The translations under genes were made by a program, and so were the position numbers. From contig JACPIA010000001.1 in assembly GCA_016188295.1 (NCBI GenBank), positions 1-47,834 on the forward strand: a DNA stretch of 47,834 nt, in the 5' to 3' direction. The notes under the pieces were generated by a model. That model had not been told where the DNA came from, searched no databases, and saw nothing but the letters and a program-made list of their open reading frames with translations. How positions within the stretch are numbered: the stretch's first letter is position 1; each line of letters opens with the position of its first letter. Source of the DNA: Candidatus Vogelbacteria bacterium. GTDB lineage: Bacteria > Patescibacteriota > Minisyncoccia > Phycocordibacterales > XYD1-FULL-46-19. Shown here in pieces: positions 1 through 47,834 of the stretch.

Positions 1-1051
1 ACTAGATTAGCACTCTAATTGCATCACTTCACTTCTTCAGAAAGAGCTGCTTAGGACTTTTGAATTTCAATCGTTTTCGTTCTCGATCGTTGAGTCGCCT
101 GACGACATCCGCCAATTCTTTTGGAGTAATCACATTGAAGTCGATGGACCTCGGGAAATACTGACGTAAGAGTCCGTTGGTATTCTCGTTCGTGCCTCGC
201 TCCCAAAAATGATATGGATATGCAAAATACACGGTCATGCCGGACTTCTTTTCAAGATGTTCCCAGTCAGAGAATTCAGGCCCATTGTCGAGAGTGGCCG
301 TCTTCCGTTTCTTCTTTGGAATGCGCTTGAATCTCTCGATTGCAAGTTTCGTCAGAAGCTCCGCATTCATCTTCGGCAAGAGAAATGCGATGAGGTATCC
401 CGTTCTGCGATCGACAAACGAAACGATGCGCACCCTCCTGTCTCTTCCCATCAAGGTATCACCTTCAAAATCTCCGAGCCTCCCTCGGCGTTCAACGATC
501 TTCGGCCGCTCGTCAATGCGTCGTTTCTTGGCTTGTTCCCTTATTGTTTCTCTCTTCTTGGTGCCATGTCTCCTCCGATACTTTCCTTTTTGTGATCGTA
601 GATATTGCTTGAGATGCGGTGTCCGCTCCTTGATGTATCGGTAGATGGTGCTTGGGGCAAGCGTCTTTCCTTTTCTTTTCAGGACACCGGAGATTTGTTC
701 GGGTGACTTGTGAAGCTTCAATTCTTTCTTGACGAAGCGAAGCAGCGTTCCTTTGATGACCCGAATACTTTCCATGGCAGCAATGCGCTTCATGCGTTTT
801 CCGCGTCTTGCCTCGTGCGGATCGTATCCATTCCTTCCCCCGTATTCCTTGACGTGCCTTGAAACCGAACTGATGTCCTTGCTGATGGCGTGGGCAATGT
901 CCCGGAGCGAATATCCAGCCTTCAGCATCCGCGAAATGCAGGATCGGTCGCCCGAACCTATGTGTGTATGTGACATCCTTCCAGTGTGAGGCCCCGAAAG
1001 GGTGTTGCAATTAGCCTGCAAACTTTGTTGCGTTTAGAGTGAGAATTCACT
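1..1051 (-). mobile_element. Complete IS30-family insertion sequence
   Basis: Transposase ORF flanked by imperfect terminal inverted repeats (CACTCTAAttGCAtCA near 11-26; rc of 1023-1051 reads GTGAATTCTCACTCTAAACGCAACAAAGTT). The left end is repeated in inverted orientation at 47699-47834. Confidence 0.9.
29..976 (-). CDS. IS30-family transposase (ORF open to 1021; start probably at MSHTHIG)
   Basis: N-terminal HTH (YSLRDIAHAISKDISSVSRHV) and IS30 DDE motifs GDFEGDT, TLDNGPEF, PYHFWERGTNENTNGLLRQYFP. Confidence 0.93.
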   Translation of the reverse strand: MSHTHIGSGDRSCISRMLKAGYSLRDIAHAISKDISSVSRHVKEYGGRNGYDPHEARRGKRMKRIAAMESIRVIKGTLLRFVKKELKLHKSPEQISGVLKRKGKTLAPSTIYRYIKERTPHLKQYLRSQKGKYRRRHGTKKRETIREQAKKRRIDERPKIVERRGRLGDFEGDTLMGRDRRVRIVSFVDRRTGYLIAFLLPKMNAELLTKLAIERFKRIPKKKRKTATLDNGPEFSDWEHLEKKSGMTVYFAYPYHFWERGTNENTNGLLRQYFPRSIDFNVITPKELADVVRRLNDRERKRLKFKSPKQLFLKK

Positions 1052-1150: not shown

Positions 1151-1906
1151 ATGCCAACTATGCTCGGCACAATGCAAGGCGACGCTCTAGGGGTAATTCA
1201 ATACCTTGGACCGTTGATGAAGCATCTGATCGGTGAGGAAATGACCAAGACCTTGCTCGACTTTTTTCAAAAATTGTCGGGCGAGGGCGGCGAGGCCTGG
1301 TGGATGGCGTTTAAGCGCTTTCTCCGCAAAGAGAATCCCTGGATTTTGCTGTTGGACGGAGGTAGTCAACTCGAGCGCTGGTCCCTGATCTACAAAGAGG
1401 TTTTTGGATTGGAGATCAACGTTACGTCGATCAAAATTCCCGCTCAACGACTAGGCTTTGAATGTCTGCTGGTTATACCAAAAGGGCTAACCCTCGGTCA
1501 GATTGTTACGGTCCTGCGGCAGAAGTTTGACGTCTCGTTGTATGTCGAAGATCTGAATCAAGACGTGACGGTCAACTATCGAGTAAATACGGAAACGTAT
1601 GCGATCTGGATCCGTGATGTGGTTGAAGCCGATGAGGATAATAAAAACCTCTCGGCCAACCAGTTGAAAAAGCAAGGGATTGAAGGGGTGACGTTGATGG
1701 AGCGTTTGCTTTACGAGCTTATCTACTTTACGGAGACCGGCAAACATCTAGATGTGGAAAACTGGACGCTTTGCTCCGGCTCCCTTAACTCGGGCGGTGG
1801 CGTGCCGGGCGTGTACTGGGATGCCGACCGCCGCGGGTTGCGCGTCGGCTGGTTCGATCCGGACCGCCGGAGTGACCGCCTACGGGCTCGTGCAGTAGTT
1901 TCCTAA
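1151..1906 (+). CDS. Hypothetical protein with C-type-lectin-like C-terminus; candidate DGR variable protein (ORF open from 1124)
   Basis: Complete ORF, purine-rich AAGGAAAGGAAG upstream of ATG 1151. C-terminus CSGSLNSGGGVPGVYWDADRRGLRVGWFDPDRRSDRLRARAVVS. Confidence 0.75.
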   Translation: MPTMLGTMQGDALGVIQYLGPLMKHLIGEEMTKTLLDFFQKLSGEGGEAWWMAFKRFLRKENPWILLLDGGSQLERWSLIYKEVFGLEINVTSIKIPAQRLGFECLLVIPKGLTLGQIVTVLRQKFDVSLYVEDLNQDVTVNYRVNTETYAIWIRDVVEADEDNKNLSANQLKKQGIEGVTLMERLLYELIYFTETGKHLDVENWTLCSGSLNSGGGVPGVYWDADRRGLRVGWFDPDRRSDRLRARAVVS

Positions 1907-1932
1907 ATCTTATACCTTTTTACTTTAACTCT

Positions 1933-1968
1933 TGCCCCGACAACTTGTTTGTCGGGGCATCTCTTTTT
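1933..1968 (+). terminator. Rho-independent terminator
   Basis: TGCCCCGACAA / TTGTCGGGGCA 11-bp stem followed by TCTCTTTTT. Confidence 0.85.
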
Positions 1969-1980
1969 AGCTCAATTTTC

Positions 1981-2568
1981 CTAACGGCCGGATTTTTCTT
2001 TAATGATTTGATCGACGATGCCGTATTTTTTGGCCTCGTCCGCGGACATAAAAAAGTCACGGTCGGTATCTTTTTCGATCTGGGAGAGCGATTGGCCGGT
2101 GTTAGTGGCTAACATTTTATTTAAACTGTCTTTGGTCTTAAGAATGTGTTTGGCAGTAATGGCAATGTCGGAGGCTTGGCCCTCGGTACCGCCAAGTGGC
2201 TGATGGACCATCACTTCAGCATTAGGGAGAATAAAACGCTTGCCTTTTTTACCCGCCGCGAGGACGATTGCGCCACCTGAGGCGGCCATACCCACGCATA
2301 CTGTCGAGATATCCGGCTTAACATGGTTCATAGTATCGACAATCGCTAAAGTTGAGGTTACTGATCCACCAGGGGAATTAACATAAAGGGTAATATCTTT
2401 TTTAGGATCCTCTGCTTCTAAAAATAACAGTTGGGCGATAATTAAATTAGCGCTGTAGTCGTCAATGGGGCCACCTAAAAACACAATCCGCTCTTTAAGT
2501 AAGCGTGAGTAAATATCATAGGCGCGCTCGCCTTGAGGGGATTTTTCGATTACTGTCGGAATCAACAT
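1981..2568 (-). CDS. clpP: ATP-dependent Clp protease proteolytic subunit
   Basis: [17 protein letters not shown] around the catalytic Ser, VMVHQPLGG with catalytic His. Confidence 0.95.
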
Positions 2569-2582
2569 AAGCCAGCAGTATA

Positions 2583-3464
2583 TCAGTTTGAGGCTAAGGT
2601 TTCAAGCGCCTGATAAACCTGCTCATGAGCTAAATAACCAGTTACATAAGTGCGTAATCTATTCTCGTCTGCTCTCGGGTAATGAGTCTTTAACTGACCA
2701 ATTTCTTTAGTGATCTCCTCCTCATTTGGTTTAATTTTTAAATCGAGCGTTAAAGCATCTAAAATTAAGCCTAAGCGGACGCGTTTGTCGGCATCAGGTT
2801 GCCAATCGGTCTTTAATTCTTCAACCGTTTTTTTAAGATGAGTCAAATAATCAGTAAAATTTAACTGCATACTCTCAATACTGGCGCGTAATTCCGCCAA
2901 CATTTTGTCGAGTTCGTAGTCAATTAACACCATTGGCAAGGTGAGACCTTGACAATGGGCGCTGATCGCTTCCAGCATCGCTACCCGTTGCTTGTTTTTA
3001 TGCTTTAATTTCTCTTCTTCTTTTTCTGTCTCGGTCGCCTCGGCTTTTTCTGGTCCAGTTTCGATTGGCTTTAATTCTTTAATTATTTTTTTATAATCGG
3101 GCAAAATAATAGTTGGTACAATGGCGGTCGTAATTTCTAGCTCCAACGAATTACCTGCCGCTAACTTAGTCACCTTAACACTCGGCTCACCGACGGCATC
3201 TAATTTTTCTTGCTTAATTATCATTGGATAATGCTCGCGGATCGCCTCGTTGGCCATTTGCCATAAAATTTTACCCTCACCGACCTCGCGGGCCACTAAG
3301 TCGCTCGGAGCGTGACCCTTGCGGAAGCCGGGCAACTCCACCTCCTTAACTAATGCTCTAATAACCTTAGGCCGATAAGCATCAAAAACCTCACTCGGTA
3401 AAGTGAGATTTAGGGTGACGGTAGCGTCACTGGCATTTTCTGTTTTAGTAACAACAGTAAACAT
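2583..3464 (-). CDS. tig: Trigger factor, short form apparently lacking the PPIase domain
   Basis: N-terminal ribosome-binding signature [12 protein letters not shown] followed by a C-terminal helical region; 293 aa. Confidence 0.85.
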
Positions 3465-47698: not shown

Positions 47699-47834
47699 AG
47701 TGAATTCTCACTCTAAACGCAACAAAGTTTGCAGGCTAATTGCAACACCCTTTCGGGGCCTCACACTGGAAGGATGTCACATACACACATAGGTTCGGGC
47801 GACCGATCCTGCATTTCGCGGATGCTGAAGGCTG
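47699..47834 (+). mobile_element. Second IS30 copy, inverted relative to the left one and cut by window end
   Basis: Identical to reverse complement of ~916-1051; transposase start ATG at 47774. Confidence 0.93.

Follow-up and report, generated by a model that had tools for sequence, protein, structure and literature searches.

An orphan diversity-generating retroelement target in a Candidatus Vogelbacteria genome

The window, the 47,834-nucleotide stretch of Candidatus Vogelbacteria DNA analysed here, has near its left end a gene with an adenine-poor 3′-terminus, and the question it raises is whether this gene is the target of a diversity-generating retroelement (DGR) and, if so, from where its variable region (VR) was written. 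Contig C1 of the host assembly (573.8 kb in 11 contigs, 95% complete) begins with the window, which makes up its first 47.8 kb. The ORF of the variable-protein gene and the C-terminus quoted for it in the initial annotation were both correct, and translation likely starts at the ATG at 1151, as the ...LTM... start is common to relatives. The features of the target itself are:

1151..1906, forward strand: DGR variable-protein gene, a remote or orphan target of 251 amino acids plus stop (ORF call, family membership)
1778..1903, forward strand: VR (profile of the family template repeats, and codon pattern compared with 23 template repeats)
1886..1903, forward strand: invariant 3′-end, GCTCGTGCAGTAGTTTCC, a candidate initiation of mutagenic homing (IMH) site (template/VR comparison in cassettes)

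The adenine counts first given for this gene were exact on recounting, 10 A at 1801-1903 and 23 A at 1621-1680. A count of 10 or fewer is not found in any of the 1,369 sense 103-nt windows of the neighbouring genes (mean 29.8, minimum 15), and when every 103-mer of either strand is counted, with those that overlap the site included, 0.15% have so few. The G+C content of the A-poor stretch is 71%, versus 45% for the window. Such a tail might be an ordinary G+C-rich, lectin-like terminus that results from normal selection or recent transfer and is not a DGR product, and the absence of a Pfam or PHROGs match for the protein, and of a template repeat (TR) for its VR in the genome, is in keeping with that origin. 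Homologues of the window gene, however, occupy complete DGR cassettes, and an ordinary tail explains neither the codon pattern nor the inversion of third-position identity between VR and gene body that are documented below.

The 98 other genomes compared, nearly all from the same order as the host, include 15 with homologues. The 80 homologous loci kept from GTDB contigs are likewise nearly all from CPR/Patescibacteria or unnamed bacteria, with three that stem from Nitrospinota/Nitrospinae records; named plasmids and phages yielded no homologue. Intact loci have the target followed by a TR on the same strand and then by an Avd gene on the opposite strand and a reverse transcriptase (RT) gene. 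In 24 pairs of a VR and a nearby repeat, 430 of the 479 mismatches are at TR adenines, with A to G the most common change, and in five cassettes the corresponding values are 12/12, 22/22, 22/23, 23/24 and 17/18. One locus (L038, G059:C31, ~2000-2584) encodes a protein with the N-terminal segment of the window protein (71% identity over 28 amino acids, ...AFKRFLRKENPW...) and a C-terminus that is lectin-like but different from that of the window protein; judged from this protein, target modules appear to be swapped. Six IMG/VR contigs classified as viral (L142-L147) also encode family members, with no RT in the stretch examined; they represent CPR DNA classified wrongly or else remote targets carried by phages.

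An alignment of 69 VRs and 23 TRs allowed the window VR to be evaluated codon by codon, and the family TR profile matches the window gene at 1778-1899 with 30.8 bits. At the 11 columns in which the TRs encode Asn, the window codons are AAC GGC GGC TAC GAT CGC GGC GAT CGC AGT CGC: all 11 end in C or T, versus 47% of codons in the gene body, and their first two bases are scrambled. An A is retained at 7 of 28 TR-adenine positions, the 25% predicted for full randomisation, and is present at 1 of 81 positions where the TR has no adenine. The proposal that the variable codons originated by adenine mutagenesis of AAY codons is thus borne out. The same pattern holds for VRs with and without an adjacent cassette: codons at TR-Asn columns end in C or T in 94.9% and 92.7% of cases, respectively, and the AAY share is 6.7% and 6.5%, with 1/16 expected if both adenines are randomised. 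Among the orphan VRs, mean entropy is 2.87 bits at TR-adenine columns versus 1.01 elsewhere, and the family VR alignment excludes an invariant C-terminus in orthologues. With homologues in complete cassettes and a VR that obeys the TR pattern at each codon, the reading of this gene as a DGR target is supported; it is a true DGR variable-protein gene and 1778-1903 is its VR. Together with the 430 of 479 mismatches at TR adenines, the window codon pattern effectively refutes an ordinary lectin-like tail, which we regard as having next to no chance of being correct.

The VR has an IMH-like invariant 3′-end, the conserved GCAGTAGTTTC, and orphan VRs share (G/C)CAGTAGTTTC at this location. At the 3′-end site of five cassettes, a GAA in the TR corresponds to a GCA in the VR (GAAGTTT to GCAGTTT; in L033, GAAAT to GCAAT). 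As this fixed TR/VR difference resembles that between IMH* and IMH, the 3′-end of the VR is a candidate IMH.

The window locus is not a complete DGR; an RT, an Avd and another TR are all on contig C4. RVT_1 has a single match in this genome, the one DGR-type RT encoded there, consistent with the initial observation that the window has no RT:

G000:C4:20789-23791 (L001), DGR of contig C4: RT, 1339-2316, reverse strand; Avd, 2305-2700, forward strand; TR, ~2720-2850, reverse strand

The C4 bAvd gene is divergent, with 49.8 bits to Pfam bAvd and a match to PHROG Avd, but a score below the cut-off of NCBIfam DivGenRetAVD. The TR is A-rich and located ~150 nt from the contig end and, as no VR for it is present in the assembly, the target gene of this DGR is probably in the gap. 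The C4 DGR, which belongs to RT clade A, could itself have written the window VR with its own TR, as no other DGR was found in this genome and the C4 TR is distantly related to the family TRs (23.3 bits with the family TR profile). Its TR and the window VR, however, share only 15-16-nt pieces that fall on different diagonals, with no continuous alignment, and in a tree of 61 RTs the C4 RT is a member of a clade of 26 (support 99/91), none of which has a family gene nearby. All 30 RTs that are near family genes fall in the other main group, clade B, of 33 RTs; support for this group as a whole is only 87/64, and for its main part 96/87. No clade-B RT was found in the host assembly. The machinery expected for the window VR is, by this grouping, not that on C4, and we consider it very improbable that the C4 DGR wrote the window VR. 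The suggestion that an RT acts from elsewhere therefore stands insofar as an RT, Avd and TR do exist on C4, but the TR there is not the template and the RT is of the other clade.

A near-identical, A-rich template was sought throughout the 95%-complete assembly and none was found. A BLASTN search of the genome with the VR as query returned only the VR itself, and two TR patterns relaxed at adenines added only a 3-mismatch, low-complexity match on contig C5, where a control pattern also matched. The family TR profile, applied genome-wide, detected only the window VR and the C4 TR. The template of the window VR is absent from the assembly, and none of the DNA examined, within or outside this genome, is an allowed template for it. 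The best candidate, the TR of L065, has 10 incompatible positions of 90, as compared with 24 for the best unrelated site in the window. A pattern search of viral contigs identified no TR, and RT-bearing viral contigs were rejected as a source as their TR-like matches score at most 49.7 bits versus 83-94 for true family TRs. Almost none of the TRs adjacent to RTs in other genomes with orphan targets match the orphans.

Separation of target and cassette is common in this family. The VR is readable in 68 family genes, which were classified by RT distance and flanking sequence: 24 had an RT within 3 kb, 22 were orphans whose flanks extend for 3 kb or more on either side with no RT, and 22, at contig ends, were undecidable. 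Orphans therefore make up about half of the members that are informative. A single TR of genome G008, located next to an RT fragment on a third contig, is matched by two orphan VRs, with 18 of 19 and 19 of 23 mismatches at TR adenines, and the TR/VR match in trans is thus directly documented there. At third codon positions, some unlinked pairs resemble each other more closely in the VR than in the rest of the gene (VR and gene-body identities of 0.95 and 0.36 in G050, 0.92 and 0.35 in G008, and 1.0 and 0.77 in G102, a genome with no RT match). The G050 pair also has nearly identical downstream DNA, including the hairpin, with gene bodies that are 37% identical in protein sequence. Given this inversion and the G008 match, the likeness of unlinked VRs is best interpreted by a shared template from which they were written in trans. 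A concerted pattern is not clear in the same-genome pairs L115/L129 and L064/L119. Two further genomes have multiple VRs. G104 (L208-L213) has six or more full-length, unlinked VRs of the family; a search of this genome for a clade-B RT found none, and it has one weak RVT_1 match. The paralogous VRs of G105 (L090, L095, L096, L097) differ chiefly in the first two positions of their codons, and their TR was not found beside the three RTs tested in that genome.

Very probably, then, the window gene is a remote DGR target that encodes a variable binding protein and has a VR written in trans by a clade-B cassette located elsewhere. The last ~126 bp were replaced by cDNA from an A-rich TR with the template adenines randomised, as the family comparison demonstrates, and the cognate clade-B cassette (TR, Avd and RT) would have acted in trans, for which relatives provide documented matches in trans. 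That cassette may have been lost, may be carried by an unbinned replicon or may lie in the portion of the genome that the assembly lacks. The invariant codons presumably maintain the scaffold, with some dozen randomised codons altering the surface that binds; the protein would bind a variable ligand. Against this explanation are the lack of a VR-compatible TR and of a clade-B RT in the assembly, the same-genome orphan pairs without a concerted pattern, and a C-type lectin fold match that is non-significant. The absence of TR and clade-B RT, here and in the assemblies of many relatives, would also fit a relic, namely a genuine VR that is now a fixed variant in a lineage that has since lost its clade-B DGR, and G005, 99% complete and with no RT, has a family member with a degraded, A-rich tail. 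In the window VR, however, the randomised pattern is retained and A is nearly absent from positions that are not adenine in the TR, which argues for little decay since the last writing. Contigs also break beside TRs, as on G000:C4, ~150 nt from the TR, and on G008:C9, so the missing cassettes may be losses of assembly. We give the relic somewhat less than an even chance; it competes only with the idea of continuing rewriting, and writing by a clade-B DGR is common to both. It is unlikely, but conceivable, that a TR and RT belonging to a phage, to a relative in the same habitat or to a mobile replicon left unbinned keep orphan VRs freshly randomised, in which case a resident gene would be diversified by visiting, non-chromosomal machinery.

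Downstream and upstream of the gene, the window has three additional features:

1933..1959, forward strand: hairpin with an 11-bp stem and 5-nt loop, then a T-run; an apparent intrinsic terminator, possibly also a DGR target hairpin
1..1022, reverse strand: IS30-family-like transposase element (ORF 29-1021; inverted repeats 7-27/1002-1022)
47729..47834, forward strand: start of a second IS30-like copy, which runs to the end of the window

The hairpin noted originally is confirmed, with a perfect 11-bp stem (arms 1933-1943 and 1949-1959) followed by TCTCTTTTT. It is located 26 nt past the stop codon, and half of the family has a perfect stem of at least 7 bp at a median distance of 27 nt, often with a T-run after the stem. 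With this family-conserved spacing it looks like a terminator, although a role in DGR target recognition is possible by analogy with the hairpins of related DGRs, positioned 4-34 bp after the VR (PMC3240598). The left IS30-like copy forms the contig end ~130 bp upstream of the variable-protein gene and, with the second copy, bounds the first 47 kb of the window; the element is possibly an agent of gene dispersal and not part of the DGR. The C-terminal domain was modelled with a pLDDT of 96.5, and its best Foldseek matches in the PDB are Mtd variants and C-type lectins, with E-values of ~0.9-7 for Mtd, CTLD, TvpA and FGE. With E-values near 1, a C-type lectin fold is suggested but not established for the variable domain. 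A fold search with the full-length model was uninformative, and a viral fold library gave no match.

The window gene belongs to a kind of element already known, as both the abundance of DGRs in CPR genomes and the existence of remote targets have been reported (PMC8144416, PMC10907252, PMC7517822). The cellular DGRs of CPR/Patescibacteria (DGR clade 2, Roux et al. 2021, PMC8144416) have the same hosts, C-terminal VRs, bAvd and RT, adenine-specific TR/VR mismatches and targets without recognised domains, whereas the window target is alone, away from a TR and RT, and its own TR is missing from the assembly. The remote variable proteins of cyanobacteria (PMC7517822) and the trans-diversified targets of Thiohalocapsa PB-PSB1 (PMC10907252) are, as here, distant from the DGR locus, with a 3′-end VR and transposases nearby. 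The window protein is of a different family, and most remote VRs in those genomes can be assigned to a TR that the genome itself encodes, whereas none was found for the window VR. The DGR of Bordetella phage BPP-1 (mtd; PMC3240598) resembles the window gene in its C-terminal VR, in its IMH end, for which the window VR has a candidate, and in a GC-rich downstream hairpin, and variants of its Mtd are the top, albeit non-significant, fold matches of the window protein. The BPP-1 components, however, are all in one locus whereas the window target is separate, and the BPP-1 hairpin has a 4-nt GRNA loop whereas the window hairpin has a 5-nt loop (CTTGT) and a T-run after the stem.

Contig-based DGR surveys miss remote targets as the search is confined to the neighbourhood of the RT; by its own statement, the survey of PMC8144416 could not detect them. 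In this family, free targets are about as numerous as those in cassettes (22 versus 24). This raises the question of how unlinked VRs stay in step, and undecayed, in genomes whose assemblies lack the template. The free targets are recognisable from the codon pattern alone, so that such genes can be found without an RT.
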